A stretch of DNA of 55,807 nt, taken from positions 1 through 55,807 of the forward strand of contig JAOUIL010000013.1 in the NCBI GenBank assembly GCA_029883975.1, in the 5' to 3' direction. The translations under genes were made by a program, and so were the position numbers. Shown piece by piece: positions 19,159 to 34,124 of this stretch. Source of the stretch: Betaproteobacteria bacterium (GTDB lineage: Bacteria; Pseudomonadota; Gammaproteobacteria; Burkholderiales; SG8-39). The notes beneath the pieces were generated by a model. The model searched no databases and was not told where the DNA came from. It saw nothing but the letters and a program-made list of their open reading frames with translations. Each line of letters opens with the position of its first letter. The first letter of the stretch is position 1.

Positions 19159-19928
19159 GCGCGCGCGCCGGGTCGCGCTCGCACCTGGTGGTCATCCCGA
19201 GCTACAACCCCGGGCCCCAGGTGTTCGCCACGGTGCGCGCGGCGCGCGCGCAGTGGGCTCCCGTCTGGGTGGTGGTGGATGGCAGCACCGACGGCACGCG
19301 CGAGGGACTGGAGCGCATGGCGCGCGAGGACGACGGGCTGCGGGTGCTGGCGCTGGAGCGCAACGGCGGCAAGGGTGCGGCGGTGCTGCACGCCCTGCGC
19401 GCCGCGCAGGCCGCGGGCTACAGCCACGTGCTCACCATGGACGCCGATGGCCAGCATCCGGCCGCTTCGATCCCGGAGTTCATGACGGCGTCCATGCGCT
19501 CGCCCGGCGCGGTGGTGCTCGGCGTGCCGCAGTTCGACGCCAGCGCGCCGGCGCTGCGCGTGCACGGCCGGCGCGTGTCGAACTGGTGGGCGAACCTGGA
19601 GACGCTGTGGGCGGGCATCGGCGACTCGCTGTTCGGCTTTCGCGTCTACCCGGTCGGTCCGCTGCTAGCGATCATGCAGGCGCAGCGCTGGATGCGGCGC
19701 TTCGACTTCGACCCCGAGGCCGCCGTCCGGCTCGTGTGGCGCGGCGTGCCGCCGCTCAACCTGCCGGCTCCGGTGCGCTACCTGCGGCCCGAGGACGGCG
19801 GGGTGTCGCACTTTCGCTACTGGCGCGACAACGCGCTGCTCAGCTGGATGCACGTCCGGCTGATGCTCGGCTTCCTCCTGCGCCTGCCGTGGCTGGCGCT
19901 GCGCCGCGTTACGCCATCCCGCCGTTGA
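19155..19928 (+). CDS. Glycosyltransferase family 2 protein
   Basis: A 257-residue GT-A fold enzyme: nucleotide-sugar site VIPSYNPG near residue 11, VVVDGSTDGT near residue 38, the metal-binding DxD as MDADGQHPA near residue 95, and a C-terminal hydrophobic stretch. It resembles the GT2 domain that is fused to an LpxL-like acyltransferase in many aryl-polyene loci; here the GT2 is a separate gene and an LpxL-like gene stands in the facing operon. Its last 20 bases overlap the ketoreductase gene on the other strand. Confidence 0.85.
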   Translation: MSARAGSRSHLVVIPSYNPGPQVFATVRAARAQWAPVWVVVDGSTDGTREGLERMAREDDGLRVLALERNGGKGAAVLHALRAAQAAGYSHVLTMDADGQHPAASIPEFMTASMRSPGAVVLGVPQFDASAPALRVHGRRVSNWWANLETLWAGIGDSLFGFRVYPVGPLLAIMQAQRWMRRFDFDPEAAVRLVWRGVPPLNLPAPVRYLRPEDGGVSHFRYWRDNALLSWMHVRLMLGFLLRLPWLALRRVTPSRR

Positions 19929-20631
19929 TGGGGATCGTCTGGCCGGTGATGTAGGCGGCGCGGTCGGAGGCAAGGAAGGCAACCAGCTCGGCGACCTCCG
20001 CGGCGGTGCCCGCGCGCTGCAGCGGCACCAGCTCGCGGATGCGCTCCGCGGGGAAGCTCGCGCTCATCGCGGTTTCGATCAGGCCGGGGGCGACCGCGTT
20101 GACGGTCACGCCGCGCTTCCCCAGCTCGAGCGCTAGCGTGCGCGTCGCCGAGATCAGCGCGCCCTTGGCCGCCGCGTAGTTCGCCTGCCCGCGGTTGCCG
20201 AGCACCGCGCTCACCGAGGCCATGTTGACGATGCGGCCCCAGCGCGTGCGCAGCATCGGCAGGACGAGCGGCTGCGTGACGTGGAAGAAGCCATGCAGCG
20301 ACACGTCGATGACGCTCTTCCACTGCGCCTCGCGCATGCCGGGGAAGGCCGCGTCGTCGTGGGTGCCGGCGTTGTTGACCAGGATCTGCACCGGTCCGCG
20401 CTCGAGCAGGCTTTCGAGCGCGGCGCGCGCCGCCGCGGCGTCGGTCACGTCGAACGCGAGCGCTTCGGCGCTGCCGCCACGCGCGACGATGTCCGCGGCG
20501 AGCGTGCGCGCGGCGTCCAGGTGCCGGTGGGCATGCACGACGACGTGCCGCCCGTCGGCCGCCAGGCGGCGGCAGATCTCTGCGCCGATTCCGCCGCTGC
20601 CGCCGGTGACCAGGGCGCGCAGCGCGCTCAT
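19909..20631 (-). CDS. 3-oxoacyl-ACP reductase (FabG-like), polyene ketoreductase
   Basis: A 240-residue short-chain dehydrogenase that would reduce the beta-keto group after each condensation. It shows the NADPH motif TGGSGGIGAEIC near residue 9, NNAG near residue 88, and a complete Ser-Tyr-Lys triad in MASVSAVLGN...YAAAKGAL near residues 138-156. Ending ITGQTIPINGGMA is typical of FabG. It corresponds in position and type to ApeQ of aryl-polyene systems. It overlaps the dehydratase gene by four bases and is the last gene of the operon. Confidence 0.88.
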   Translation of the reverse strand: MSALRALVTGGSGGIGAEICRRLAADGRHVVVHAHRHLDAARTLAADIVARGGSAEALAFDVTDAAAARAALESLLERGPVQILVNNAGTHDDAAFPGMREAQWKSVIDVSLHGFFHVTQPLVLPMLRTRWGRIVNMASVSAVLGNRGQANYAAAKGALISATRTLALELGKRGVTVNAVAPGLIETAMSASFPAERIRELVPLQRAGTAAEVAELVAFLASDRAAYITGQTIPINGGMA

Positions 20632-21068
20632 GCCCGCTTGCGCGCGTCCAGCACCACGGTCGCGCGCCCGTGCAGGAGCTCGCCGGCCTCGCCGGAGATG
20701 CTGAAGTCGTAGAGGATGTGGTCCTGCTCCCCGCTGCGCCGCTCCGCGGTGACGCGCAGGGGCCCGGGCACGTCGTCCAGCCGGTCCGCGTGCAGCGTCA
20801 GGGCGCGCACGCTCGCGAGGATTCCCGGGCCAAGCGGCGCGCCGTCCGCCGCGAGCAGCGCGCCGTGCACTGCCATGGCCTGCGCGCCGTACTCCACGCC
20901 GCACGCCGCCGGCAGGCGGCCGCCCACGCGCAGCGGATTGCCGGGATCGGCGTGGCTGCTCGCGCGGCACACGATGCGCCGGGCATCGTACTCCAGCACT
21001 CCGTCCAGCAGGCACATCGCGCCGTGATGCGGGATGTGCGCCTCGATCCAGTCCTTGCCTAGGCGCAT
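20628..21068 (-). CDS. 3-hydroxyacyl-ACP dehydratase, hotdog fold (ApeP-like)
   Basis: A 146-residue single hotdog protein. The N-terminal IPHHGAMCLLDGV (catalytic His region near residue 13) and CGVEYGAQAMAVHGAL near residue 60 (acidic residue and hotdog helix) match the ApeP/predicted 3-hydroxyacyl-ACP dehydratase family that makes the trans double bonds of aryl polyenes. The start ATG at 21068 lies inside the end of the chain-length-factor gene (10-bp overlap), and its stop overlaps the ketoreductase start. A second, FabZ-like hotdog gene lies at 28358-28633. Confidence 0.85.
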   Translation of the reverse strand: MRLGKDWIEAHIPHHGAMCLLDGVLEYDARRIVCRASSHADPGNPLRVGGRLPAACGVEYGAQAMAVHGALLAADGAPLGPGILASVRALTLHADRLDDVPGPLRVTAERRSGEQDHILYDFSISGEAGELLHGRATVVLDARKRA

Positions 21069-21859
21069 AACGTGACCCCGACCGCGAGGCTCAGGCCGTC
21101 GAGATACTCGAGGACATCCTCGCCGGCCTCGCGCCGTGCGATGCGGCGCAGCAGCGGCAGCGCGCGCGCGGTGGGAATCGCGCGGCGCACGTGCTCGAGC
21201 GCGGGAATCGCCAGCGGCTCCGGCGTGCGGGCGCCGAGCGAGAGCTCGAGCGCCGCGAGGCTGCCCGCGCTGGCGGCGGGACTCAGCAGCAGCGCGGCGC
21301 CGAACGCATCCGGCACCGGCCGCTTGGCGCGCAGCGGCTCGGGGTAGGGCGCGTCGTAGGCGATGAGCAGCACCGCTTCGCCGCGCGCGCGAGCGAGGGC
21401 GCTGGCCTCGAGCAGTCCCGCGACGAAGCTGCCGTCGTAGGCGCACAGGCTGGTCGACGGCGCCATGCTGCGCGTGGCGATGCTCCAGTAGCCGGCCGGG
21501 GCGTTGTGCACCGAGTTGTGGAAACGCGTCGGCGAGATCAGGCGGTCGTCGCCGGCGAGCTGCTCGCAGATCGCGTGGCAGGTATCGCCGTCCGCGGACG
21601 AGGAGGCGAACACGGTCGGCAGCCGCGCCGGATCGCGTCCGCTCGCGTCGAGCGCCGCGGCGCCGGCGGCGAGCGCGATGCGCACCGCCAGGCCGCTGCG
21701 CCGGCGCTCGTTCGGCGGCAGCAGCACCGCCGGCGGCACGGCGGTCGGCGCAGCGACGTAGGCGCGCTCGCCCGCGAGCACCGCGCGCGCCTCGTCCCAG
21801 CCGCTCAGGCCCGGCCCGATCAGGGCGATCGCGTCGATGGCGGCGCGCAAGGCGTTCAC
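21059..21859 (-). CDS. Beta-ketoacyl synthase chain-length-factor-like protein (ApeC-like)
   Basis: A 266-residue protein covering only the N-terminal ketosynthase fold. SPTRFHNSVHNAPAGYWSIA near residue 110 and STSLCAYDGSFVAGLLEA near residue 135 are the signature of the beta-ketoacyl synthase N-terminal-like family used as chain length factor in aryl-polyene PKS. The complete thiolase-fold C-terminal half with the two catalytic His is missing, as in the family, so it is expected to be a non-catalytic partner of a ketosynthase. GTG start overlaps the stop of the neighbouring ketosynthase (GTGA). Confidence 0.85.
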   Translation of the reverse strand: MNALRAAIDAIALIGPGLSGWDEARAVLAGERAYVAAPTAVPPAVLLPPNERRRSGLAVRIALAAGAAALDASGRDPARLPTVFASSSADGDTCHAICEQLAGDDRLISPTRFHNSVHNAPAGYWSIATRSMAPSTSLCAYDGSFVAGLLEASALARARGEAVLLIAYDAPYPEPLRAKRPVPDAFGAALLLSPAASAGSLAALELSLGARTPEPLAIPALEHVRRAIPTARALPLLRRIARREAGEDVLEYLDGLSLAVGVTLCA

Positions 21860-23046
21860 GCACGCCCCAGCACGAGGCTGCAATTCGTGCCGCCGAAGCC
21901 GAACGAGTTGCTGAGCACGCGGCGCACTGACGCGTCGCGGCTCTCGCGCACGTAGCATGCGCGCAGCGCCGGATCGGGCGCCGTCGTGTTGGCCCCGCCC
22001 GGAATGAAGCCGTGGCGCAGCGCCAGGGCGGCGATCACCGCCTCGACGGCGCCGGCCGCGCCCAGCGTGTGGCCGGTGGCGCCCTTGGTCGAGCTGCAGG
22101 GCGTGGACGTGCCGAACACCTCGACCATCGCGCGGTCTTCCGCGGCGTCGTTGCTGGGCGTGGCGGTGCCGTGCAGGTTCACGTAGTCGATATCGCGCGC
22201 GGCGAGGCGCGCGTCGGCCAGCGCCGCCTGCATGGCGAGACGCGCGCCCAGGCCCTCGGGGTGCGGCGCCGACATGTGGTGGGCGTCGCTCGACTCGCCC
22301 ACGCCGAGCACGGCGATGGCGTCGGCGGGCGCCGCCGCGGCGAGCGGCTCGAGCAGCGCGAAGGCCGCCGCCTCGCCGATCGACAGGCCGCTGCGCGCGC
22401 GGTCCCAGGGGCGGCAGGGCTCGCGCGCGAGCAGCTCGAGCGAATTGAACCCGTACAGTGTCGTCAGGCAAAGGCTGTCCACCCCGCCCACCACGGCGGC
22501 GCCGATCAGCCCGGCCTCGATCATGCGTGCGGCCGTGCCGAACACTTTCGCGCTCGAGGAGCAGGCTGTGGACACCGTCCAGGCCGGGCCGGCGAGCCCG
22601 AGCCGCGCGCGCACGTAACCGGTGACGGAGTAGGTGTTGTGCGTGCGCGCGTAGTCGAAGTCCGCGGGCAGCGTGCCATCCAGCGGCGCGCGGCGGCGGT
22701 AGGCGAGCTCGGTCTGCAGGATCCCGGAGGTGCTCGTGCCGAGAAACACGCCCACGCGCTGCGCGCCGTGGCGCGCGGCCGCGGCGCCGACCGCGGCGGC
22801 GAAGCCGTCCTGCGTGAGCGCAAGCTCGGCGAGGCGATTGTTGCGGCAGTCCCACGCCGCGAGCGCCCCCGGCAGGCGCACCTCGTCCACGTTGGCGATC
22901 TCGCCGATGCAGGTGTCAAGCGCCGCGGACTCGAACTGGCGCGCGGCGAGACCGCTGGCGCGGCGCTGCAGGGCGTCGAGCGTCGGCCCGCATCCGCGCC
23001 CGAGGCAGCTGGTGAGGGTGTAATGGGACAGTTGCAGCGGCTGCAT
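21856..23046 (-). CDS. Beta-ketoacyl-ACP synthase (polyene KS, FabF-like)
   Basis: A 396-residue condensing enzyme. The catalytic Cys is in VSTACSSSAKVFG near residue 160, the two His are in NLHGTATPSND near residue 297 and GHTLGAAGAVEA near residue 330, and it ends NSFGFGGTNCSLVLGRA as FabF proteins do. Directly followed by the chain length factor gene, so the two probably form the heterodimer that extends the polyene with malonyl-ACP. It starts five bases after the methyltransferase stop. Confidence 0.88.
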   Translation of the reverse strand: MQPLQLSHYTLTSCLGRGCGPTLDALQRRASGLAARQFESAALDTCIGEIANVDEVRLPGALAAWDCRNNRLAELALTQDGFAAAVGAAAARHGAQRVGVFLGTSTSGILQTELAYRRRAPLDGTLPADFDYARTHNTYSVTGYVRARLGLAGPAWTVSTACSSSAKVFGTAARMIEAGLIGAAVVGGVDSLCLTTLYGFNSLELLAREPCRPWDRARSGLSIGEAAAFALLEPLAAAAPADAIAVLGVGESSDAHHMSAPHPEGLGARLAMQAALADARLAARDIDYVNLHGTATPSNDAAEDRAMVEVFGTSTPCSSTKGATGHTLGAAGAVEAVIAALALRHGFIPGGANTTAPDPALRACYVRESRDASVRRVLSNSFGFGGTNCSLVLGRA

Positions 23047-23051
23047 GGAGG

Positions 23052-23732
23052 TCAGTCGTGACGCGGAGCGCGGGCGACGAGCAGGACGTTGGCGAACGGC
23101 GTGCCGCGGCTCATCGGCTCGGCGCGCACCGCGAAGCCGAGCGCCTCCAGCGCGCCGCGCCATTGTGCCACGCTGCGGCAGTGGAAGCGGGTCGCGCCGT
23201 GCCCGCGCGCGCAGGCGACGCACCAATCCGCCCAGTTGCTGAGCAGGAACGGCAGTCCGCCGCCGGCATCGCCGATGCGCAGCAGCAGCGTGCCGCCGGG
23301 GGCGAGCGCGGCGCGCACCCGAGCGAGCACCGCGTCCTGGTCGGCGAGCGGCAGGTAGTGCAGCACGTCGAGGAGGACGACCACGTCCGCGGAGCCGAAC
23401 GGGGCCGTGCGGATGTCGCCTTGCGAGACGCCGCAGTCCCCGCCCAGCGCGCGCCGCGCGCGCTCGACGTCGCGCGCCATCAGCTCGAATCCCCGGTACG
23501 AGGCGAGCCGCGGCTCGCCCGCCGCGTCGAGCAGCGCGCGCAGCAGGCCCTGCCCGCAGCCCAGGTCGAGCAGCCGCGCGCCCTCCGGAATGAGGCGCGC
23601 CTCGAGGAAGTGCCGGAACGCCGGGTCGCGGCCCAGCTTGCCGCGCGCGAAATGCCAGGCGAAGCTCCCCGCCGCGCGATATGGCGCGCTCGCCGCCTCG
23701 ACGAGGCGCGCGTATTGCGCGGCGGCGCTCAA
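23052..23732 (-). CDS. Class I SAM-dependent methyltransferase, polyene locus
   Basis: A 226-residue Rossmann-fold methyltransferase. The SAM-binding motif LLDLGCGQGLLRALLD is near residue 52, VVLLDVLHYLP near residue 110 and APGGTLLLRIGDAGGG near residue 133. The start is inferred as the TTG at 23732 that overlaps the deacetylase stop (TTGA) since it is the only start giving coupling and the expected N-terminus. In aryl-polyene loci a methyltransferase can methylate the aryl head group; the substrate here is not known. Confidence 0.8.
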   Translation of the reverse strand: MSAAAQYARLVEAASAPYRAAGSFAWHFARGKLGRDPAFRHFLEARLIPEGARLLDLGCGQGLLRALLDAAGEPRLASYRGFELMARDVERARRALGGDCGVSQGDIRTAPFGSADVVVLLDVLHYLPLADQDAVLARVRAALAPGGTLLLRIGDAGGGLPFLLSNWADWCVACARGHGATRFHCRSVAQWRGALEALGFAVRAEPMSRGTPFANVLLVARAPRHD

Positions 23733-24556
23733 TCGAGCGCGGCGCGCAGCGTGACCGGCCGCAATCCGGCGGCCGCGATGCGCTCGAGCAGCGGCGGCAG
23801 CGCCTCCAGCACGACCGGGACGCCGCTCGCGGTGCGCGCCGCGTGGCCGTCGTGCAGCAGCAGGATGTCGCCCGCGGCGAGATCCCGGGTGAGGCGTCGC
23901 AGGACGGCGGCCGTATCGGCGCTGACCGTGTCGAAGCCGCGCCGCGTCCAGCTGGCGAGCGTCAGCCCGAGGCGCGCCAGCACGTAGTCGAGAAACGGAT
24001 TGCGTAGCCCCGCGGGGGCGCGAAAGAAGCGCGGCGCGTCGCCGGCGAGCGCGGCGAGCGTCTGCTGCGCGCCGCCGAGCTCCTCGAGATAACGGCCCGG
24101 GCCGAAGAACGCAAAGCCGTGGCTGTGCCGCAGCGAATGGTTTTCCACCGCGTGCCCCGCCTCGACCATGGCGCGCACCAGACGGGGGTGTTGCGCCGCG
24201 CGCTCGCCGATGCAGAAGAACGTCGCGCGCACGCCGGCGCGCGCCAGCAGCTCGAGCACGCCTGGGGTGACCTCCGGGTCGGGGCCGTCGTCCAGCGTGA
24301 GCGCGATTTGACCGCGCGCGGCCGCCGGTGCCGGCAGGCGCGTCCAGTTCGGTCCGAGCAGGCGGCTGCGCGGCAGCAGGCCGCCGGCCGCCAGCAGAGC
24401 CTGGTTCGCGGCGATGGCGCCGAGCGCCCAGCCCCAGTGCTCCGGAGCAGCGGCGAAGCCGGCGAGCGCCGCGCCGTGCAGGAGCACCGAGCCCTGCAGG
24501 TAGCGATTCGGGCGCCACGGCGCGCCCGTGCGCGCCGCCGCGTGCACAAAGGCCAT
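23729..24556 (-). CDS. Membrane-anchored polysaccharide deacetylase (carbohydrate esterase 4), polyene locus
   Basis: A 275-residue protein: about 60 N-terminal residues contain two hydrophobic segments, then a NodB-like domain with all five motifs intact: TLDDGPDP near residue 87, ENHSLRHSH near residue 138 (metal-binding HxxxH), RAPAG near residue 178, RRGFDT near 203 and LLLHDGH near residue 226. It should therefore be an active metal-dependent deacetylase, probably acting on an N-acetylated sugar. It lies between the MMPL exporter and the methyltransferase inside the polyene operon. The start could also be an ATG at 24574, overlapping the exporter gene. I do not recall this class as a standard aryl-polyene gene. 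Confidence 0.83.
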   Translation of the reverse strand: MAFVHAAARTGAPWRPNRYLQGSVLLHGAALAGFAAAPEHWGWALGAIAANQALLAAGGLLPRSRLLGPNWTRLPAPAAARGQIALTLDDGPDPEVTPGVLELLARAGVRATFFCIGERAAQHPRLVRAMVEAGHAVENHSLRHSHGFAFFGPGRYLEELGGAQQTLAALAGDAPRFFRAPAGLRNPFLDYVLARLGLTLASWTRRGFDTVSADTAAVLRRLTRDLAAGDILLLHDGHAARTASGVPVVLEALPPLLERIAAAGLRPVTLRAALD

Positions 24557-24563
24557 GGGCGGA

Positions 24564-26906
24564 TTATCGCGCATCGCCGCGCGCGCCCGCGAGCAGCGCG
24601 GCAAAGGCGAGCGCCAGCAGCGTGCCCGTCGCCACGGTCACGCCGAGTGCGCGCAGCACCGGCACGTGCGAGCTGGCGAGCACGCCGAAGCCGACCACCG
24701 TGGTGGCATTGGCGAGCGCGAGCGAGGCGAGCACGCGCGGCGCGGGCGGGCCCTGCGCGGCGGCATGCTCGAAGAACAGCGCGTAGTTCGAGCCGACCGC
24801 CACCACCAGCAGGAAGCCGACCAGGTGCAGGAGCGTGAGCGGCTCGCCGGCGGCGGCGAGCAGCGCCGCCGTCACCAGCACCGCGGCGCCGAGCGGCGCG
24901 GCCACGCGCCCGACGCGCGCCGCCGAGCGCAGGGCGATCATCAGCAGGAGCAGCACCACCGCCACGCCGGCGGCGGAGAGCGCGATGGCTTCCCCCAGAT
25001 AGGCCGCATAGAGCGCGTCGGCTTCCGCCTTGAGGTCGAGGAATTCCGCGCCGCTGCCGAGCAGCGCCTCGCGCGCCTGGCCGGTATCGATGAACCCGCC
25101 GCCGGAGGGCGGGCCGCGCAGCGGCAGTACGGCGAGCCAGCGCCCGGCCCGGGGCAGGAGCAGCGCGTCGAGCGCGACTCCCAGCCCGGTGCCCTCGAGA
25201 TCTGCGCGCTGCAGGCGCGCGCCCGCGTGCACCTTCGCCACGTCGGCGACGAACGCTTCCAGGCGCGCGGCGCGCAACGGCAGCCCGCGCAGCGCCCGTT
25301 CCAGCCGCGCGCGCAGCTCGCGCAGCGGCGGCAGGCTGGCGGCGCGCGCGCCCTGCGTCGCCTCGCTCGGCAGGTAGGTGGCGGGACTGTCGAATCCGGC
25401 GATCACGCCTTGCGCGACGAGCGGCTGCAGGGCCGTGCCCACGCGCTCGGCGGCGCGCAGCGCCTCCTGCGCGTCGTTGCCCTCCGCGACCACCAGATAG
25501 CGCGCGTCCGGCGCCCCGAGGTCGGCGCGCAGGCGGCCGTCGTAGGCCTGCTCCTCCTCGCTCAGAGTGCTGAGGACGGACAGGCTGCTCGCCCACAGCG
25601 CATCGCGCTTGGCGAGCAGCACCACCGCCGCGGCGATCACCAGCAGCGTGACCACGCCGCGCCAGCGCGGCGCCGCGGCGCACAGGCGCGCCAGGTGCAC
25701 GCCGAACGGCGACAGGTCGCGCACATGAAAGGCGGCCGGGAGCAGGCTGGGCAGCACGAAGCGCGTGAACAGCGCGGCGGCAGCCAGCCCGCAGACGGAG
25801 TACAGGCCGAGCTGGGCGAGGCCGGGAAAGCCCGAGAGCAGCAGGGCGCCGAAGCCGGCGAGCGAGGTGAGCACGCCGAGGCGGATCGTCGGCCAGAACT
25901 CCGCCAGCCAGGCCGCGCGACGCGCCTGCGCGTCCTGCGGCGCGGCCGTCTGCACGAACAGGTACACCGCGTAGTCCACCGCCTCGCCGATGAGGGTGAT
26001 GCCGAAGCCGAGCGTGATGCCGTGCACCACGCCGAAGCCCAGGGCCACCGCCGCGACGCCCGCCAGCGCGCCGCTCAGCACGGGCAGCAGCCCGAAGGCG
26101 AGCGCCGCGGGCGAGCGGTACGCGGCGAGCAGCAGCACGGCCACCAGCGCCATGCCGAGCGCGGCGACGCGCGCCACTTCCTGCTTCATCGTCGCGCGCG
26201 ACTGCACCGCGAACACGCCCGCGCCGCTCATGCGCAGTCGCAGGCCGGACGCGCTGCCGGCGTCGAAAGCGGCGCGCGCGGCCGCCATGGCCGCCGCCTG
26301 CCCATCGGTGTCCGCGCCGCCGGCCGCGGTGCGCGCGAGGAGCACGGCGCGCTCGCCGTCGCGCGACGCCCAGACCCCTTCACGACTCAGTGGCGGCGCC
26401 GAGCCGGCCATGCGCGCCTCGGCAAGGCGGGCCACTTCGCCGGTCGGGTCGCGCGCCAGCAGGGCCTGCGCCAGCCCCCCGGCGGAGGAAGCGACCGTGT
26501 CGAGGTTGTCCACGATCGCTTCGCGCAATCCCCCGGCGCTGAAGCGCTCGGGCGTTACTGCGGGGCTGAGCAGGTAGCGGTGCTCGACCAGCAGACGGCG
26601 CTCGCGCTCGGTGCTGCCGGCGGCGCCGTTGGCCACGTAGGCGAAGCGCGCGTCGGCGCGCAGGCGCTCGGCGAGCGCGCGCGAGGCCGCGGCGCGCGAG
26701 GCCGCATCGCCGCCTTCGATGGCGAGCAGCATGACGCGGCCGACGGCGCCCTCGCGCAGCTGGTCGACGAGCAGCTGCTGGGCGGGGCTGGGCGAGCGCG
26801 GCAGGAAGGCCGACAGGTCGGCCGTGTAGCGCGCGCCGGCGGCGATGGCGGCCGCGGCGACGAGCGCCGCGAGCCAGGCGAGCAGCGGAACGCGCGCGCG
26901 GCTCAA
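24564..26906 (-). CDS. MMPL/RND-superfamily exporter, polyene locus
   Basis: A 780-residue inner-membrane protein with the MMPL layout: one N-terminal helix, a large periplasmic loop (residues 30-235), five to six helices (to about 420), a second loop and a final helix bundle. TLGFGITLIGEAVDYAVYLF near residue 300 and VVAVGSNYALFFEHAA near residue 700 are the conserved transmembrane charged-residue motifs. This matches the exporter of aryl-polyene loci, proposed to move the lipid-linked pigment to the outer membrane together with the LolA-like protein. It overlaps the LolA-like gene by four bases. Confidence 0.87.
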   Translation of the reverse strand: MSRARVPLLAWLAALVAAAAIAAGARYTADLSAFLPRSPSPAQQLLVDQLREGAVGRVMLLAIEGGDAASRAAASRALAERLRADARFAYVANGAAGSTERERRLLVEHRYLLSPAVTPERFSAGGLREAIVDNLDTVASSAGGLAQALLARDPTGEVARLAEARMAGSAPPLSREGVWASRDGERAVLLARTAAGGADTDGQAAAMAAARAAFDAGSASGLRLRMSGAGVFAVQSRATMKQEVARVAALGMALVAVLLLAAYRSPAALAFGLLPVLSGALAGVAAVALGFGVVHGITLGFGITLIGEAVDYAVYLFVQTAAPQDAQARRAAWLAEFWPTIRLGVLTSLAGFGALLLSGFPGLAQLGLYSVCGLAAAALFTRFVLPSLLPAAFHVRDLSPFGVHLARLCAAAPRWRGVVTLLVIAAAVVLLAKRDALWASSLSVLSTLSEEEQAYDGRLRADLGAPDARYLVVAEGNDAQEALRAAERVGTALQPLVAQGVIAGFDSPATYLPSEATQGARAASLPPLRELRARLERALRGLPLRAARLEAFVADVAKVHAGARLQRADLEGTGLGVALDALLLPRAGRWLAVLPLRGPPSGGGFIDTGQAREALLGSGAEFLDLKAEADALYAAYLGEAIALSAAGVAVVLLLLMIALRSAARVGRVAAPLGAAVLVTAALLAAAGEPLTLLHLVGFLLVVAVGSNYALFFEHAAAQGPPAPRVLASLALANATTVVGFGVLASSHVPVLRALGVTVATGTLLALAFAALLAGARGDAR

Positions 26907-27487
26907 CGCGCCCCCGGCAGACGCTGCACGCTCATGAGCGAGCGGTCGCCGTTGGCATGCACGATCTCGACCACCGAGATTTCGGCATGCCGGCCGGCGA
27001 TGCGCACGCGCGCGACCAGGTCCGACATCGCGGGCGTGCGCGGCACCAGCGTGAGCGCCCAGGAGGCCGCGTCCCCCTCCAGCGCCAGCTGGTAGGCGCG
27101 CTCGAGCGCCTCGCGGTCGCCGGCCAGCGTGCCGCGGATGCTCTGCACGAAGGCGGCGACCTCCGGATAGCTGCGCAGGTCGAGCTGCAGGCGGCGCTCG
27201 CCGCGCTCCAGCGTCAGCCTGTCTCCGTCGAGCACCAGCAGCTCGGGGCGCGGGCGCAGGGTGCGCTTTTCCAGCCGGTCGGGCGCCGCGAAGCGCAGCT
27301 CGCCCGAGCTGACCAGCGGCCGCTCGAGCACGCGCACGGTCTTCCTCTCGACGAAGCTGGCGCGCGCCTCGCGCGTCTGCGCGAAGCCGGCAAGCAGCCG
27401 CTCGACGTCCCAGGACGGGGCCGCCGGCGCAGCCGCCGCCCAGGCGAGCAGGACGACGCCGAGCAGGCGTTCAAGCCGCGGCGCCAT
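26903..27487 (-). CDS. LolA-like outer-membrane lipoprotein carrier, polyene locus
   Basis: A 194-residue periplasmic protein with a signal peptide (LLGVVLLAWAAAAPAAPS, cleavage near residue 23) followed by a LolA-type half-barrel: SFVERKTVRVLERPLVSSG near residue 45 and LRPRPELLVLDGDRLTLERG near residue 78. Such proteins accompany the MMPL exporter in aryl-polyene loci and probably carry the lipid product through the periplasm. ATG at 27487 lies inside the preceding acyltransferase gene (17-bp overlap). Confidence 0.8.
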   Translation of the reverse strand: MAPRLERLLGVVLLAWAAAAPAAPSWDVERLLAGFAQTREARASFVERKTVRVLERPLVSSGELRFAAPDRLEKRTLRPRPELLVLDGDRLTLERGERRLQLDLRSYPEVAAFVQSIRGTLAGDREALERAYQLALEGDAASWALTLVPRTPAMSDLVARVRIAGRHAEISVVEIVHANGDRSLMSVQRLPGAR

Positions 27488-28361
27488 CGGCCCAGAAGTC
27501 GTAGAAGTTGAACCAGTTGAACGGCGCGGCGCGGCAGTGCCGCTCGAGGCAGGCGACGTAGGCCGCGAGCGCCGCCTCGGGCCGCGGGCGCGGCGTCGCG
27601 CCGAAATCGGCCAGCGGCTCGAAATGCAGCGCATAGCGCCTGCCGCCGAGGTACAGCCCGGCCATGAACAGCGTGCGACAGCGCAGCATCGCGGCCATGC
27701 GCATCGGCCCGAGCGGGAAGCGCGCCGGCGTGCCCAGGAAGGGCACGCTGCTGGCGCCGCCCTCGGCGAGCGCGCGATCGGCCAGCACGCCCGCGATGCC
27801 CCCGCCTTCGAGGAAGTCGCGCACCCGCAGCATGGCATCCACGCGCCCGAGCGTGATGACGTCCTGCCGGGCGGCCGGGCCGAGCGCGGCGAGCGTCTCG
27901 TTGAGCATGCGCGCATTGTCCTCGTACATCACCATGGCGATGCGCAGGCCGGTGGCGCGGCGCCCCGGGGCGCGCAAGGCCTCGAAGCTGCCCAGGTGCG
28001 CGCCGAGCAGCAGGGCGCCGCGACCGGGCGCGAGCGCCGCGCGCAACGCGTCCTCGCCGTGCACCTCGATGTCGAACTGCTCGAAGCGCTCGTCGAGCAG
28101 ATACACGCGGTCGAGGATGGTGGCGGCGAAGCTGTGGAAGTGCCGGTAGCGCTCGGCGAGCGTGGACGGCCGCCCGAGCACGCGTGCCAGGTAGGCGCCG
28201 GAGGCGCGCCGCTCGCGCGGCGCTAAGGCGAGATAGTAGGCCGTGATCGGATGCAGCACGGCGCGCGCGACGCCCCGGCCCAGCGCGAGCGCGATCCAGC
28301 GCATCAGGCGCAGGATCTGGCGATGGCTGCGCTCGGGCCGCGCGCGCCAGGCAGCCGTCAT
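27471..28361 (-). CDS. LpxL/HtrB-like acyltransferase, polyene locus
   Basis: A 296-residue member of the lipid A late-acyltransferase family: hydrophobic N-terminus, LLGAHLGSFEALR (catalytic H-x4-E, HLGSFE) near residue 118, and VLADRALAEGGASSVPFLG near residue 193. In many aryl-polyene loci this domain is fused behind GT2; here it is a separate gene. It overlaps the FabZ-like gene by four bases (ATGA) and the LolA-like gene downstream. Substrate is inferred, not shown. Confidence 0.83.
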   Translation of the reverse strand: MTAAWRARPERSHRQILRLMRWIALALGRGVARAVLHPITAYYLALAPRERRASGAYLARVLGRPSTLAERYRHFHSFAATILDRVYLLDERFEQFDIEVHGEDALRAALAPGRGALLLGAHLGSFEALRAPGRRATGLRIAMVMYEDNARMLNETLAALGPAARQDVITLGRVDAMLRVRDFLEGGGIAGVLADRALAEGGASSVPFLGTPARFPLGPMRMAAMLRCRTLFMAGLYLGGRRYALHFEPLADFGATPRPRPEAALAAYVACLERHCRAAPFNWFNFYDFWADGAAA

Positions 28362-28633
28362 GCGCGCGCCGCCTGCAGGGTCACGCTCGCCACCAGCTGC
28401 GCGCCGACGCGCAGCTCGAGCCGGGTTGCGCCGGCGCGCCGCACCTCGACCCCTTCCCCCGGCCCGACCGGCCGCAGGAACTTCACCGCGGCGATGCGCG
28501 TGCCCGCGCCGCCGAGCCCGTGCGCGGCGAGCGCCGCTGCGAGCAGCAGCGCGCCGGGCACCACGGGCGCACCGGGAAAATGCCCCGGAAACGCCGGGTG
28601 CGAAGCGGGAAAGCGCAGGGTCGGCTCGCTCAT
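28358..28633 (-). CDS. FabZ-like 3-hydroxyacyl-ACP dehydratase, short
   Basis: A 91-residue single hotdog protein, shorter than FabZ (about 145). It has HPAFPGHFPGAPVVPG at residues 12-27, which matches the FabZ active-site block HFPGxPVxPG with its catalytic His, but the stretch with the usual acidic partner is compressed. It could be a dehydratase that works with the ApeP-like enzyme or an inactive partner. In aryl-polyene loci a hotdog domain sits next to or is fused to the AMP ligase (ApeI type), as here, with a four-base overlap. Confidence 0.75.
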   Translation of the reverse strand: MSEPTLRFPASHPAFPGHFPGAPVVPGALLLAAALAAHGLGGAGTRIAAVKFLRPVGPGEGVEVRRAGATRLELRVGAQLVASVTLQAARA

Positions 28634-29967
28634 CGGCGCGGCGGCACGTGCGCGCGCGCCAGCGCGCGCAGCGCCTCGCGCGGCAGCTTGCCCGTCTGGG
28701 CGCGCGGCAGGCGCTCGAGCAGGACCAGCGGCCGCGGCAGGAAGGCCGGGTCGATGCGCTGGCGCAGCTCGGCAAGCAACGCGGCGCGCGTGAGCGTCGG
28801 CGCGACGACGAATGCGGCCAGCCGCCGCACGTCGGCGCCCGAGTCCTCGTCGGGCATGTAGAACGCGCCGTCGGCCACGCCGGCGATGGCGCGCAGCTGC
28901 GCGTCCAGGTGGGCGAGCGAGGAGCGCTTGCCCGCGACGTTGACCATGTCGGCGACGCGGCCACGCAGCAGGAAGCGGTCCTCGGCCAGCGGCTCGAGGA
29001 CGTCACCGAGCCGCGTGGGCTGCTCGATGTGGCCGCCCTCTGCCCAGGCCTCGCCGTCGCGCACGGACACGCGGATGCCGGGCAGCGTGCGCCACTCGGA
29101 TTCGCGCGCGCTGCGGCGCGTGGCCATCTGGCCGGTTTCCGTGCTGCCGTAGATCTCGAGCAGCGGCGCACCGCAGCGGGCCTCGGCCTGCTCGGCCAGC
29201 CCGGCATCGAGCGGCGCGGTGGCGCACAGCAGCAGGTCGAGCGGCGGCGGGCGCGGCGCATCCTCGAGCAGCGCGCGCAGGTGGAAGGGGGTGGTGACGA
29301 GCGCGCGCGGGCGCGGCACGCGCTCGAGCGCCGCGCACACGTCGCCGGGATAGAACGGCCGCTCCGCGCACAGGGCCCCGCCGCCGCACAGCGCAGCGAG
29401 CACGCTCGATTCGAAGCCGTACATGTGCTGCGGCGGCACGGTCGCCACGATCGCCGGCTGGCGCGGCGCGATGCTCCAGCGCTCCAGCGCGCCGCGCACG
29501 TCGCGCGTCAGCGCGCCCCAATGCTTGGGGTTGGGCGCCGGCGCGCCGGTCGACCCGGACGTGAACACGATGGCGCACAGGTTCGCGGCGGGGATCCGCG
29601 GAACGGCGAATCCGCCCGTGATCGGGCTGTGCGCGGCGCTCACCGGGATCCGCGGCAGGTCGATGGGCGCAGTGCCTTCGTCCGCGAGCACATAGGGCTG
29701 CGCGGCGAACTCGCGCAGCCGGCGCACGGTTTCCGGCGTGTGATCGGGCGGCAGCAGCGTCACCTGCCCGCGCAGCAGCGCGGCGGCGAGGCCCACCGCG
29801 AAGCCGTAGCGGTCCGCGCAGGCATTGAGGACGTGGCCGCGGGCGGGCAGGCGCGCCGCCAGCGCGGCGGCATCGGCGAGGTATTGCGCGGCGCTCACCG
29901 GCTGCGCACCGCGCCACGCGAGCGTCTCGCCGGGCGCCGCGGCGCCGATGAGCGGGATCCCCGTCAC
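28630..29967 (-). CDS. AMP-dependent acyl/aryl-ACP ligase, polyene locus
   Basis: A 445-residue adenylate-forming enzyme. IVFTSGSTGAPAPNPKHWG near residue 132 is the P-loop-like ATP motif, EIYGSTETGQMATR near residue 265 the acid/ATP motif, and GRVADMVNVAGKRSSLAHLD near residue 345 the hinge region; a Lys-containing QTGKLPR near residue 425 completes it. In aryl-polyene systems this enzyme loads the aromatic starter onto ACP. GTG at 29967 is selected because it is just after the upstream stop. Substrate is unknown here, since no ammonia lyase is present to make a cinnamic starter. Confidence 0.84.
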   Translation of the reverse strand: MTGIPLIGAAAPGETLAWRGAQPVSAAQYLADAAALAARLPARGHVLNACADRYGFAVGLAAALLRGQVTLLPPDHTPETVRRLREFAAQPYVLADEGTAPIDLPRIPVSAAHSPITGGFAVPRIPAANLCAIVFTSGSTGAPAPNPKHWGALTRDVRGALERWSIAPRQPAIVATVPPQHMYGFESSVLAALCGGGALCAERPFYPGDVCAALERVPRPRALVTTPFHLRALLEDAPRPPPLDLLLCATAPLDAGLAEQAEARCGAPLLEIYGSTETGQMATRRSARESEWRTLPGIRVSVRDGEAWAEGGHIEQPTRLGDVLEPLAEDRFLLRGRVADMVNVAGKRSSLAHLDAQLRAIAGVADGAFYMPDEDSGADVRRLAAFVVAPTLTRAALLAELRQRIDPAFLPRPLVLLERLPRAQTGKLPREALRALARAHVPPRR

Positions 29968-29977
29968 GCGGGCGGGG

Positions 29978-30523
29978 CTAACGCGGCCCGGCAGGGCTGC
30001 GCGCGATGGAGTCCCAGTACGCGCGCATGCTGCGCAGGACGCCGGACGCGAAGCCGCCGCGCGCCTGCTCGGGGCAGGCGCGCAGCCGGACCACGTACTC
30101 GGCGACGAACATCGCGCCCACCAGCGGCAGCGTGAGCACATTGGCGAACAGCGACCAGGCGCTGAGCGGCGCGGCGACGTAGAGCAGCACCGAGAGCGCC
30201 GCCATCGCGGCGCAGAACAGCGCCCAGGCGAGCGTGACCCGCCGCGTGTACGCGAGCGCGCGCGGGCTGAGCGTGCCGTTCACGGCCCGGGCGAACCGCG
30301 TGACCTGCGCCTCGCGCCCGGGCCGCAGGCTGGCCGCGAACCACGCCGCGAGCGCGACGAACATCGCCACGTGCTGCAGCAGGTAGAGCCAGGGCAGGTA
30401 GGGCGCCAGCGCGCCCAGCGCCTCGCGGCCGCGGGCGGTGGTCAGCCAGTGCCCGAAGGCGGCGTACGCCAGCACCGGCGCTGCGAGCAGCGCGAGCCAG
30501 ACGCCGGTGCGGCCGCGCATCAC
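29978..30523 (-). CDS. COG4648-like membrane protein of the polyene locus
   Basis: A 181-residue integral membrane protein with four hydrophobic stretches (near residues 8-25, 43-65, 108-130 and 133-152) and a basic C-terminus. It shows the short NGTLSPRALAYTRRVTLAW block of the COG4648 family found next to the AMP ligase and ACPs in aryl-polyene loci. Its function is unknown; it may tether the synthase to the membrane. It overlaps the ACP gene by four bases. Confidence 0.7.
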   Translation of the reverse strand: MMRGRTGVWLALLAAPVLAYAAFGHWLTTARGREALGALAPYLPWLYLLQHVAMFVALAAWFAASLRPGREAQVTRFARAVNGTLSPRALAYTRRVTLAWALFCAAMAALSVLLYVAAPLSAWSLFANVLTLPLVGAMFVAEYVVRLRACPEQARGGFASGVLRSMRAYWDSIARSPAGPR

Positions 30524-30819
30524 TTCGTGCGGTTCTGCGCGATGAAGCGGGCGAGGTTGGAGAGCGAGGCGAAAATCACCGTGTTGTCCTCGTGATCCGA
30601 GCGCAGGCGCACGCCGTAGCGCCGCGACACGACGAGCGCGAGCTCGAGGATGTCGATCGAGTCCAGGCCGAGGCCCTCGCCGTACAGCGGCGCCTCGGGC
30701 GCGATGTCCTGCGGCTGGACCTCGAGATTGAGCTCGGCGACGATCAGGCCGGCCAGCTCCCGCAGCAGGGCGGGATCGGCGGCGGGCGCGAGAGGCGCAC
30801 TGCTCGGAACGCTGGACAT
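30520..30819 (-). CDS. Acyl carrier protein 1, polyene locus
   Basis: A 99-residue ACP with the phosphopantetheine-attachment motif GLGLDSIDILELAL (Ser near residue 54) and a flexible, Ala/Pro-rich N-terminal 18 residues. Two ACP genes flank one ketosynthase here (the other is 32102-32356), as in aryl-polyene systems that use two ACPs. DSID rather than DSL is typical of one of the two. Coupled to the downstream membrane gene. Confidence 0.88.
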   Translation of the reverse strand: MSSVPSSAPLAPAADPALLRELAGLIVAELNLEVQPQDIAPEAPLYGEGLGLDSIDILELALVVSRRYGVRLRSDHEDNTVIFASLSNLARFIAQNRTK

Positions 30820-30839
30820 GGACGAAGTCTAGCGGCTGC

Positions 30840-32105
30840 TCAGAGTGTGTTCAATCCGCCGGGCGCGCGGAACGCGAGCACCGCGTTGCTGCCGCCGAAG
30901 GCGAACGAATTGGACAGCGCCGCGCGCGGCCGCGCGCCGCGCAGCCCCGCGCCGAGCACATGCGCCGGTCCTGCGCATTCGGGGTCGAGCGTCTCGGCGG
31001 CGCCCAGCGTCGGCGGCAGGTCGCCCGCGTGCAGCGCGAGCACGGTGATTGCGGCCTCCAGCGCGCCCGCGGCGCCCAGCGGGTGGCCGAGCGACGACTT
31101 GGTCGAGCTCACCCGCACCTGGGACAGGCGCGCGCCGAGCGCGGCGCGCAGCGCGGCGATCTCGACCGCGTCGCCCTCGCGCGTCCCGGTGGCGTGCGCG
31201 TTCACGTAGTCGAGCTCCGCCGGGTCGAGGCGCGCGTCGGCGAGCGCGGCGCGCACGGCGCGCGCCTGGCCGTCGGCGCTGGGGCGCACCAGGTTCAGGT
31301 GATCGCTCGACTCGCCGAAGCCGGCGAGCTCGGCGTAGATGCGCACGCCGCGCCGCTCGGCGCGCGCCCAGTCCTCCAGCACGAGCGCGGCGCCGCCCTC
31401 GGCGAGCACCAGGCCCGCGCGGTCCGCGTGGAACGGGCGGCAGGCGCGCGCGGCGCTCGCCGCGTCGCCGGGCGCGAGCACCTGCAGCGCGAGCCAGGCG
31501 CGGATCACCCCGTAGGCGAGCGGCGCTTCCGAGCCGCCGGCGAGCATCACCGGCGCGCTGCCTGCGCGCACGCGCCGGAACGCGTCGCCGATGGCCATCG
31601 CGGCCGAAGCGCAGGCATCCGAATGCGTGCTGCAGGTGCCGCCCAGGCCGAAGCTGATCGCCAGGTGCGACGCGCAGGCGTTGTTCATGGCCTGCACCAC
31701 GGTGAGCGGCGCGAGCCGCTCGCGTCCCGCGGCGTACACCTCGCGGTAGCCGCGCTCGAAGGTGAGCGCGCCGCCCATGCCCGTGCCCCAGGCGACGCCC
31801 CAGTCGGCGCGGTCCTCGTCCGCGCCCTGCGCCAGGCCCGCGTCGCGCCACGCCTCCAGCCCGGCGACCACGCCGAGCTGGCTGTAGCGGTCCATGGTGG
31901 CGGCGCGCGGCTTGCCGAGTGCGGTGACCGGATCGAACTCGGCGCACACCCCCGCGGGCACGGCGAGCGGATGCGGCGCATCGGGCGGCGCGAGCAGCCG
32001 CAGTCCCGAGCGTCCCTCGAGCAGCGCGGCGAAAGCCGCGCGCGCGCCGGCGCCCGCCGGGCTCACCATGCCGAGCCCGGTCACGGCCACGCGGCGCGCG
32101 CTCAT
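30840..32105 (-). CDS. Beta-ketoacyl-ACP synthase (second polyene KS, FabF-like)
   Basis: A 421-residue condensing enzyme with catalytic Cys in HSDACASAAMAIGDAF near residue 163, His in NAHATGTREGDAVE near residue 305 and in GHPLGAAGALEAA near residue 342, and the ending NSFAFGGSNAVLAFR. All catalytic residues are present, unlike the chain length factor. In aryl-polyene loci a second KS may extend or initiate. It overlaps the upstream ACP gene (ATGA) and is followed by ACP 1 after 20 bp. Confidence 0.88.
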   Translation of the reverse strand: MSARRVAVTGLGMVSPAGAGARAAFAALLEGRSGLRLLAPPDAPHPLAVPAGVCAEFDPVTALGKPRAATMDRYSQLGVVAGLEAWRDAGLAQGADEDRADWGVAWGTGMGGALTFERGYREVYAAGRERLAPLTVVQAMNNACASHLAISFGLGGTCSTHSDACASAAMAIGDAFRRVRAGSAPVMLAGGSEAPLAYGVIRAWLALQVLAPGDAASAARACRPFHADRAGLVLAEGGAALVLEDWARAERRGVRIYAELAGFGESSDHLNLVRPSADGQARAVRAALADARLDPAELDYVNAHATGTREGDAVEIAALRAALGARLSQVRVSSTKSSLGHPLGAAGALEAAITVLALHAGDLPPTLGAAETLDPECAGPAHVLGAGLRGARPRAALSNSFAFGGSNAVLAFRAPGGLNTL

Positions 32106-32356
32106 TGGCCGCCGGCGGCGGACCTCGGCGCGGCGATGCGCTCGAGCAACTGCGTCAGCTCGCCGCAGGTGCGCGGCGGCGGCGTGTCCTCGCCGACGCG
32201 CAGGCCGAGCTTGTCCTCGATCTCGAACATCAGCTCGAGCAGCGCGAGCGAGTCCACGCCCAGCGTGGCGAGATCGGCCGCGGCGTCGGCCGACTTCAGG
32301 TCGATGCCCAGCCGCTCCTCGACGAAGCGGTAGGCGAGCGCCGCGTCGCGCATCAT
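32102..32356 (-). CDS. Acyl carrier protein 2, polyene locus
   Basis: An 84-residue ACP with attachment motif LGVDSLALLELMFEIED (Ser near residue 36). Its ATG is two bases after the Bug-protein stop, so it is likely to be on the same transcript as fabI and the Bug gene; an internal promoter within the Bug gene cannot be excluded. A second ATG one codon downstream is possible as start. Confidence 0.87.
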   Translation of the reverse strand: MMRDAALAYRFVEERLGIDLKSADAAADLATLGVDSLALLELMFEIEDKLGLRVGEDTPPPRTCGELTQLLERIAAPRSAAGGQ

Positions 32357-32358
32357 GG

Positions 32359-33324
32359 CTATTTGCCGGCCGCCTTGCCGATCTTGTGCACGGCCGCGCT
32401 GAGGCGCTTGGCGTCCTCGTGCCAGAACGTCTGGAACTCGGGCGCGTCGAGGTAGTTGAGCGGCGTGCGCACCTTGGCCATCGCGCCGGCGAACTGCGGA
32501 TCGGCGACCGCCGCGCGCACTGCGGCGCGCAGCTTGTGCTGCGCCGCGGCCGGCGTGGCCGCGGGCGCCACGACGCCGGACCAGATGTAGAACTCGACGT
32601 CCTTGTATCCCAGCTCCTTGAAGGTCGGCAGCTCGGGCATCAGGTCGAGGCGCTTGGCGCCCCAGCCGGCGAGCGCGCGCATCTTGCCGGCCTGGATCTG
32701 GCCGACTGCGGCGGCCGGTCCCGAGGCGAGCGCCTGCACCTCGCCCGAGAGCAGCGCGCGCACCGCCGGCCCGCCGCCCTGGTACGGGACGTGGAACAGC
32801 TTGATGCCGGCGGAGCCGGCGAACATCTCCATCGCCACGTGCAGCGTGCCGAAGATGCCCGAGGACGAGTAGTTGATCTTGCCCGGGTTGGCCTTCGCGT
32901 AGGCGACGAAGTCGGCCACGGTCTTGTACGGGCTCGACGCGCTCACCACCAGCACGGTGGGATCGGCGGTCACCAGCGCGATCGGCACGAAGTCCGAGAT
33001 CTGGTAGGGCGCCGCACGGCCCTGCAGGGGGTCCGACACCGGGAAGATCGAGATCGAGGAGAGGGCCATGAGGACGGTGTAGCCATCCGGATCGGCTTTC
33101 GCCGCCGCCGTCATGCCGACTGCCCCCCCGGCGCCGGGCCGGTTGACCACGACGATCGGCTGCCCGAGCGTCTTCTCCATCGATGCGGCGAGCGGCCGGC
33201 CGACGATGTCGGCGACGCCGCCCGGCGGGAAGGGCACGATCATGGTGATCGGCCGGGTCGGATACTCCTGCGCCTGGGCGCCGAGCGCGAGCAGGGCGGT
33301 GATCGCCGCGATGATTTTCTTCAT
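32359..33324 (-). CDS. Tripartite tricarboxylate transporter substrate-binding protein (Bug/TctC family)
   Basis: A 321-residue periplasmic binding protein: signal peptide [19 protein letters not shown] with cleavage near residue 19, then [20 protein letters not shown], the family opening, and [20 protein letters not shown] near residue 150. Bug proteins bind small carboxylates; many are orphan and numerous in Burkholderiales. It overlaps the fabI stop (ATGA) and ends two bases before ACP 2. Why a carboxylate-binding protein is in a polyene operon is not clear. Confidence 0.9.
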
Positions 33325-34124
33325 GACTCGGTTCCTCCTCCTCCTGGAATACCTGCCACTACGTTGCGAAAGCCTGCGTCCACGTACATTACCTCGCCCG
33401 TGACCCCGGCGGCGAGGTCCGAGAGCAGGAAGGCGGCAGCGTTGCCGACGTCCTCGGTGGTCACGTTGCGCCGCAGCGGCGCCTGCTCCTCGACGAACCT
33501 GAGGATCTTGCCGAAGCCGGCGATGCCCGAGGCGGCCAGCGTCTTGATCGGTCCCGCGGAGATGCCGTTCACGCGGATGCCGCGCGGACCGAGGCTCGCC
33601 GCCAGGTAGCGCACCGCGGCCTCCAGGCTCGCCTTGGCGAGTCCCATGGTGTTGTAATTCGGCACGACGCGCTCGGCGCCCAGGTAGGTCAGTGTCACGA
33701 GCGAGGCCTTGCGCCCCTGCATCAGCGGCAGCGCGCCCTTGGCGAGCGCCGGGAAGCTGTAGGCCGAGACGTCATGCGCGATGCGGAACGCCTCGCGCGA
33801 CAGGCCGTCGAGAAAGTCGCCCGCGATCGCCTCGCGCGGCGCGTAGGCGATGGCGTGCACCAGGCCGTCGAGCCCGTCCCAGCGCTCGCCGAGCCGCGCG
33901 AACAGCGTCTCGACCTGCGCGTCCTCGGCGACGTCGCAGGGCAGCGCGATGTCCGAGCCGAGCTCGCACGCCATGTCCTCGACGCGCTCCTGGAAGCGCT
34001 CGTTCTGGTAGGTGAAGGCGAGCTCCGCCCCTTCGCGCCGCGCGGCCTTCGCCACGCCATAGGCGATCGAGCGGTTGCTGAGCAGGCCGGTGACGAGAAT
34101 GCGGCGGCCGGAAAGGATCGGCAT
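33321..34124 (-). CDS. fabI: Enoyl-[acyl-carrier-protein] reductase FabI
   Basis: NADH-dependent last step of fatty-acid elongation. The 267-residue product has [20 protein letters not shown] near residue 13, the catalytic Tyr in [20 protein letters not shown] (Y-x6-K, near residues 146-163), and [16 protein letters not shown] near residue 187. It is complete and is the first gene of the minus-strand operon. The start lies eight bases downstream of a TATAAT on the minus strand (34138-34133), and TSS may be at the start codon. Confidence 0.95.

Follow-up and report, generated by a model that had tools for sequence, protein, structure and literature searches.

Very probably a complete xanthomonadin/arcuflavin-type aryl-polyene lipid gene cluster between apparently resident fabI and ppiD genes of a Betaproteobacteria genome

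Why would an operon with the genes of a polyene pigment begin with fabI, which encodes an enoyl-ACP reductase, and include neither an ammonia lyase nor a thioesterase? The question is raised by contig JAOUIL010000013.1 of a Betaproteobacteria bacterium (assembly GCA_029883975.1), which was analyzed over its entire length of 55,807 nucleotides (hereafter, the window; contig C25 in our numbering). The genome comprises 3.44 Mb in 175 contigs and is 98.48% complete. In an earlier note on this sequence, both properties were taken as hints that the starter, and possibly the product class, differ from those of known aryl polyenes (APEs). We conclude that the window very probably carries a complete xanthomonadin/arcuflavin-type aryl-polyene lipid cluster flanked by fabI and ppiD, both resident there. 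This is a known kind of cluster with two modest distinctive points, namely an added pair of acyl carrier protein (ACP) and FabF-like ketosynthase (KS) genes and the source of the starter.

Based on the open reading frames of the window and on family searches, 17 genes, all on the minus strand, run from 34124 to 19909, as the earlier note had described. All of them were found, and with the chosen starts their junctions are overlaps of 1–17 bp or gaps of 2–20 bp (i.e., −17 to +20 bp). The gene names given previously agree with the family matches (FabI, TctC/Bug, two PP-binding proteins, two ketoacyl synthases, AMP-binding, FabA-like, Lip_A_acyltrans, LolA, MMPL, polysaccharide deacetylase, methyltransferase, Ketoacyl-synt_2 for the chain length factor [CLF], and a short-chain dehydrogenase/reductase-type ketoreductase [KR]). 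Pfam gave no model for the COG4648-like protein, which nevertheless aligns to Escherichia coli ApeG, or for the 146-aa dehydratase, which aligns weakly to ApeP. Two convergent plus-strand genes, encoding an acyltransferase and a family 2 glycosyltransferase (GT2), belong to the same cluster and were not in the earlier note. GT2 adjoins KR in the same-genus genome G003 and lies about 1 kb from KR in G051 and G016. The features are as follows, with ape (E. coli) and arc (Azoarcus) equivalents.

34133..34138, minus strand: TATAAT, likely promoter −10 element, 8 bases before the fabI ATG
33321..34124, minus strand: fabI, enoyl-ACP reductase (NF005422, 467.8 bits, over cut-off), read as resident and not as a cluster gene
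32359..33324, minus strand: Bug/TctC periplasmic binding protein (PF03401, 243 bits), probably resident with fabI
32102..32356, minus strand: ACP1 of the added ACP-FabF pair (PF00550)
30840..32105, minus strand: KS1, FabF-like ketosynthase of the added pair (TIGR03150, 370.7 bits, under the cut-off of 493.75)
30520..30819, minus strand: ACP2, starter ACP of ApeE/arcV type (49% to E. coli ApeE; NF006617, over cut-off)
29978..30520, minus strand: COG4648-like membrane protein, ApeG/arcU position (E=1e-7 to ApeG)
28630..29967, minus strand: AMP-forming acyl-ACP ligase, ApeH/arcT (PF00501; 28% to ApeH, E=6e-23)
28358..28633, minus strand: short FabZ-like dehydratase, ApeI/arcS (PF07977; GHFPxxPxxPG motif kept in the alignment with ApeI and relatives)
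27471..28361, minus strand: LpxL-like acyltransferase, C-terminal half of ApeJ/arcR (PF03279; 29% to ApeJ 247-549)
26903..27487, minus strand: LolA-like carrier, ApeL/arcQ (PF19574; E=3e-8 to ApeL)
24564..26906, minus strand: MMPL/RND exporter, ApeM/arcP (PF03176; E=1e-18 to ApeM)
23729..24556, minus strand: polysaccharide (NodB-like) deacetylase, arcN position (PF01522; no E. coli counterpart)
23052..23732, minus strand: S-adenosylmethionine (SAM) methyltransferase, arcM position (PF13489; no BLAST match to E. coli ApeB)
21856..23046, minus strand: KS2, elongating ketosynthase, ApeO/arcK (NF006618, 544.9 bits, over cut-off; 45% to ApeO; tree)
21059..21850, minus strand: CLF, ApeC/arcJ (PF13723; E=4e-10 to ApeC)
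20628..21068, minus strand: second dehydratase (146 aa), ApeP/arcI (33% over 60 aa to ApeP, E=0.002; aligned with relatives)
19909..20631, minus strand: ketoreductase, ApeQ/arcH (46% to ApeQ)
19155..19928, plus strand: GT2 glycosyltransferase, convergent, N-terminal half of ApeJ/arcE (PF00535; 40% to ApeJ)
18370..19158, plus strand: acyltransferase, convergent, ApeD/arcD (PF01553; 30% to ApeD)
16434..18296, plus strand: ppiD, resident gene at the other border of the island (PF13624 and others)

The operon is not a chance arrangement because its gene order recurs, up to the limits of the contigs, in three genomes of the same genus (G001, G002, and G003; 48–86% identity per gene). It is whole in G003, where it is split over two contigs and is without Bug, whereas the G002 contig covers only fabI to COG4648 and the G001 contig only KS1 to the dehydratase.

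Using one-way BLAST against the ape locus of E. coli CFT073, counterparts were found for 12 of the 18 Ape proteins (C, D, E, G, H, I, J, L, M, O, P, and Q), with ApeJ represented by two separate genes; KS1 is a weak match to a 13th, ApeR. The features of an APE system are present: an ApeO-type KS with a CLF-like partner gene adjoining it (family models, BLAST, and a tree whose KS2 set was limited to segments of more than 300 aligned residues), an AMP-forming ligase with an ApeE-type starter ACP, a ketoreductase and two dehydratases with no enoyl reductase belonging to the cluster itself (taking fabI as resident), and LolA and MMPL export genes together with a glycosyltransferase and acyltransferases. 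To this is added, by comparison with the tabulated arc genes, the xanthomonadin/arcuflavin feature of an arc gene order with a deacetylase and a methyltransferase. BLAST of the window found none of the E. coli-type set of ApeK thioesterase, ApeN (DUF3261), ApeB, and an ApeF-type second ACP; the ApeF query matched only ACP2, and ACP1 did not match ApeF. Relatives of the ligase occur in 23 of 98 family genomes (three weak or partial), and other pigment genes adjoin it in all 16 genomes that were read, as well as in G001 and G003 (four of the 23 lie outside that reading). One cluster (G010, contig C43, 5697-8328) contains two tandem copies of the pigment ligase, each about 50% identical to that of the window. 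No solved chain matched the ligase at 1e-12. The glutamine reported for the Lysobacter CLF could not be placed, and no conserved glutamine column was seen in the aligned family CLFs.

The absence of an ammonia lyase and a thioesterase from the window, as previously reported, stands: neither PF00221, nor ApeK BLAST, nor PF13279 found one there (PF03061 was not searched). Comparison with published clusters gave no support to the assumption that a lyase is part of known aryl-polyene loci. According to the description of the 18-gene E. coli ape locus in PMC8253772, it has no ammonia lyase and its predicted starter is 4-hydroxybenzoate (4-HBA) from UbiC; the Azoarcus arc table (PMC3949708) lists neither a lyase nor a thioesterase; and the main text of the Lysobacter paper (PMC3691225) does not mention an ammonia lyase. 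In that text, the authors state that a thioesterase and a methyltransferase are missing from the xanthomonadin cluster and that 3-hydroxybenzoate (3-HBA) is supported as precursor. Nor does the thioesterase hold up as a required release enzyme, given that deletion of apeK, which encodes a putative thioesterase, is described as causing only partial loss of pigment in E. coli (PMC8253772).

The relatives show the same pattern. The search for a lyase in the rest of the genome, suggested earlier, found none (PF00221), and among 20 genomes searched (19 of the 23 ligase-positive genomes and G002), five have a lyase, including the same-genus G002. We rejected the idea that the cluster has lost a lyase, as 0 of these 5 lyases is on the ligase contig (for G002, the KS1 contig), with the limit that some of these contigs are short (G015: 3999 bases; G002: 3638 bases; G071: 10463 bases) and lyase adjacency there is still possible. 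PF13279 has six matches elsewhere in the genome of the window, and it was searched for in 15 of the 23 ligase-positive genomes. The match lies within the cluster, 14 kb from the ligase, only in G062, where it is an ApeK relative (42%); in G011 it is about 47 kb from the ligase, and the other ligase contigs have none (15 genomes; PF03061 was not searched). Loss of the thioesterase as a special feature was rejected as well. The possibility that relatives carry both genes in the cluster is therefore borne out for the thioesterase in one member and not for the lyase, none of which was seen. Relatives of ApeA are found in some family clusters (G011, G070, and G010). A missing lyase and thioesterase is ordinary for such clusters.

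To place fabI, its neighborhood was compared among relatives. A match at 1e-60 or better was found in 37 of 41 genomes, each of which has exactly one with at least 62% identity, and four of the 37 have a second match at 45–46% (the genome of the window, at C115 19124-19876 with 45% identity to the window fabI, and G011, G015, and G028). We examined 30 fabI loci, two from the same genus and 28 from outside it (of 35 such matches). The order yejA-like gene, fabI, ppiD, with no pigment gene between, was found in 21 of the 28, and ppiD adjoins fabI in 23 of them. The gap between fabI-Bug and ppiD is exactly where the pigment genes of the window are located, along with GT2 and the acyltransferase. 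A second species, G003, has the same borders (fabI-ACP1 on contig C330; acyltransferase-halogenase-ppiD on contig C250), and no fabI was seen in the family pigment clusters read (20 stretches from 16 genomes). Judged from these neighborhoods, fabI is a resident gene of the locus and not a cluster gene. Bug is probably resident together with it: G017 has fabI-bug-ppiD without pigment genes at that place (Bug: 62% identity), and Bug is present in G002 (fabI-Bug-ACP1) and absent in G003. The G+C content is 75.8% in the pigment operon, 69.9–70.7% in fabI and Bug, and 68.5–71% in the flanks. Arrival of the cluster behind fabI would be a simpler reading of the relatives than its departure elsewhere. 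Because fabI is resident there in most relatives read, its position at the head gives no support for a different product, contrary to what had been proposed. A literature search, with subscription journals mostly outside it, found no title or abstract on a fabI-headed aryl-polyene cluster, which is no proof of novelty.

All 14 relatives inspected (of 29 other fabI loci) also have the TATAAT element ahead of fabI, with or without the cluster downstream, although a strict two-hexamer scan called no promoter in the window. Because this element is kept regardless of the cluster, the old fabI promoter probably drives the operon, and fabI through the pigment genes are likely co-transcribed. The fabI leader would be very short or absent because TATAAT lies only 8 bases before the ATG. 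The window shows a pigment cluster behind a fatty-acid gene, with both probably on one transcript.

The first distinctive point is the ACP1-KS1 pair, which, judged from its distribution, is an addition and not part of the family's usual pigment cluster. It is absent from the 20 pigment stretches of 16 family genomes (several of them short); only G062 has a KS there that matches KS1, at 35%. In a scan of named genomes, KS1 matched two same-genus metagenome-assembled genomes (MAGs) at 74 and 76%; the other 57 loci matched at 32–46%. Relatives at 42–50% lie apart from other pigment genes in 10 other genomes (nine with an ACP adjoining, one at a contig end), and in G011, G016, and G017, which have both, the ACP-KS pair and the pigment cluster are on separate contigs. 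The pair of G010 (58%) is convergent to GT2 and the acyltransferase, which suggests that such pairs are tied to pigment genes in two genera. In the phylogenetic tree, KS1 groups with G010 (100/100) inside a stand-alone FabF-like group (93/93, just below the 95 mark), apart from the ApeO clade and housekeeping FabF. Nor does it join ApeR, which forms a very long branch. This tree omits the direct G002 and G001 rows for KS1 (internal stop codon); G001 entered via another segment of 310 residues. The solved chains closest to KS1 are KAS II enzymes (266 bits); 4ewg, described in print as an ApeR homolog, scores 187 bits. Given the tree placement and the higher score to KAS II than to 4ewg, orthology of KS1 with ApeR was not favored. 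By analogy with Acinetobacter baumannii, where a second, FabB-like KS (ApeR) can, as described in PMC8358021, boost early elongation, KS1 might do an ApeR-like job, although by descent it does not appear to be ApeR. Stand-alone ACP-FabF pairs in G032, G016, and G008 adjoin a conserved 254–293 aa protein, an alpha/beta hydrolase by Pfam (G032 and G016).

The second point is the starter. A 3- or 4-hydroxybenzoate as in xanthomonadins, already raised in the earlier note, would be the best option because the gene content matches the Azoarcus arc loci as tabulated. The remark that the starter may be unusual is fair as a question of supply; it is not evidence for another product class. UbiC (PF04345) was not found in 13 genomes, including that of the window; it is present in 185 of 300 genomes of the order, with no positive from this family and nine family members listed as negative. 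The XanB2-type chorismatase (TIGR04444), which had also been suggested for a genome search, has no match in the genome of the window. Weak matches (at most 32 bits, mostly over the last 120 of 311 positions) occur in 11 of 98 family genomes, and within the class, full-length matches at 1e-12 or better were found in 66 of 369 genomes, none over the curated cut-off; we infer that these 66 are XanB2-like. PF21168 and PF11659 matched in no control genome. The family is therefore without detected usual sources of 4-HBA, though the cluster should need such a starter.

A flavin halogenase separates the pigment acyltransferase from ppiD in G003 (C250 897-2219) and has the motif GWFWFIP, which we take to be a halogenase mark. 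Matches with 52–64% identity to it were found in 7 of 19 family loci (7 of 14 genomes); G061 and G062 have matches at 29–30% only, and G016, G110, G111, G112, and the G001 contig have none. These genes support xanthomonadin-type chemistry in part of the family. The window lacks a flavin halogenase at this place, from ppiD to the acyltransferase, so that its species perhaps makes a halogen-free version; the halogenase is variable in xanthomonadin clusters and is absent in Lysobacter (PMC3691225). A halogenase-like gene (48219-49487, plus strand; PF04820, GWLWFIP, 40% to that of G003) is located 14 kb beyond fabI and is followed by a gene for a patatin and Omp85 domain protein (49550-51754). An IS110-type transposase gene (53142-54002, plus strand) lies near the contig end.

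Taken together, the ApeH/ArcT-like ligase would activate hydroxybenzoate and load it onto ACP2, and KS2-CLF, the ketoreductase, and the two dehydratases would extend it to a conjugated polyene without enoyl reduction. GT2, the deacetylase, and the two acyltransferases may then attach the polyene to a lipid or sugar-lipid anchor. This attachment may also release it from the ACP, in which case no thioesterase would be needed. The methyltransferase would tailor the product, and MMPL and LolA would carry it to the outer membrane. According to this model, fabI and Bug were there first, and the transcript that they probably now share with the pigment genes would begin with them, at the old fabI promoter.

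Several observations weigh against this account. Both dehydratases align only weakly with those of E. coli, and the ACP1-KS1 pair is unexplained by the known pathway. Seven of the 28 fabI loci from outside the genus deviate (two with ppiD only, five with neither neighbor), the yejA match is just 29–33% identical in 4 of the 21 conforming loci, and the G003 borders lie on two separate contigs. Given the second FabI-like gene, orthology is what points to the FabI that would serve fatty-acid synthesis, and internal promoters in the operon are also conceivable. Finally, the UbiC, XanB2-type, and lyase searches were all negative in this genome, so the source of the starter was not found. An unremarkable answer to the last point, for which the chances stand about even, is that a UbiC, XanB2, or lyase gene is missing from the MAG or too divergent for the models, and nothing is unusual. 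Completeness is indeed 98.48% and not 100%, and UbiC is strongly divergent, with order members matching only at E=0.0007–0.002, whereas a family without a UbiC positive and without a chorismatase match above 32 bits in its 98 genomes, compared with the class-wide matches, speaks against this answer. Ubiquinone makers need 4-HBA, and UbiC and XanB2-type enzymes went undetected in the family members searched. The family may make hydroxybenzoate, for the pigment and probably for ubiquinone, by an unrecognized enzyme that is neither UbiC nor XanB2-type; this genus, in turn, may have placed pigment synthesis under the fabI promoter and gained an ACP-FabF pair whose task is to make a second acyl chain of the pigment lipid. 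As one joint claim, this is rather unlikely.

A fabI that works in the pigment pathway would change the product class: with ACP1-KS1, its enzyme might supply the lipid partner with a reduced acyl chain or yield an aryl chain that is partly reduced. It is linked to ACP1, directly or via Bug, in all three same-genus genomes with the junction on a contig (the window, G002, and G003), KS1 is of FabF and not ApeR type, and the second FabI-like gene could free the window copy for another task. However, it is the window copy, not the second, that is the ortholog of the relatives' single fabI and sits at their locus, the family clusters read have no fabI of their own, and the KS2-CLF-KR-dehydratase core is the usual polyene set, so that we consider this role very unlikely. 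A dialkylresorcinol (DAR)-type ester cluster, with ACP1-KS1 as the ACP and KS of Azoarcus darC-darJ, is highly improbable too: the dar locus as tabulated does list an adjacent ketosynthase and ACP (darJ and darC; PMC3949708), but family searches classed no operon gene as DarA or DarB (dar genes were not sought genome-wide).

Flexirubin loci carry a lyase. The window has no aromatic lyase and no genes classed as DAR, and its LolA and KR match flexirubin models under their cut-offs. The xanthomonadin clusters of Xanthomonas and Lysobacter share with the window a type II KS, a short CLF, and two dehydratases; both have XanB2, and Xanthomonas also a halogenase, neither of which is in the window cluster. 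The E. coli CFT073 cluster (APE-Ec) shares the 12 of 18 proteins and the lack of an ammonia lyase. Its ApeA, ApeB, ApeK, and ApeN have no counterpart in the window and ApeF none of its own, and its single ApeJ gene is split into two convergent genes. The window has in addition the deacetylase, another methyltransferase, ACP1-KS1, Bug, and fabI. The comparison with known APE families thus bore out the shared content and arc order, and not the claimed unusual absence of lyase and thioesterase.

The closest published match found, compared by gene list and not by sequence, is the arc (arcuflavin) set of Azoarcus sp. BH72. As listed in Table 1 of PMC3949708, arcV-arcM encode an ACP, a hypothetical protein, a ligase, a dehydratase, an acyltransferase, LolA, an exporter, a hypothetical protein, a deacetylase, and a methyltransferase, and a second locus encodes a KS, a half-KS, a dehydratase, a reductase, a glycosyltransferase, and an acyltransferase (PMC3949708). 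For the hypothetical arcO, no counterpart was placed in the window. The same table gives Azoarcus a chorismatase of XanB2 type (arcB) and a halogenase (arcA), with dar genes at a locus apart; the window cluster is without a chorismatase. From ACP2 to the methyltransferase, the tabulated order is the same as in the window, where KS, CLF, dehydratase, and ketoreductase follow, with the glycosyltransferase and acyltransferase convergent beyond them. Whereas the arc genes of Azoarcus are listed in two unlinked loci, the window has the two sets side by side behind fabI, together with the added ACP-FabF pair.

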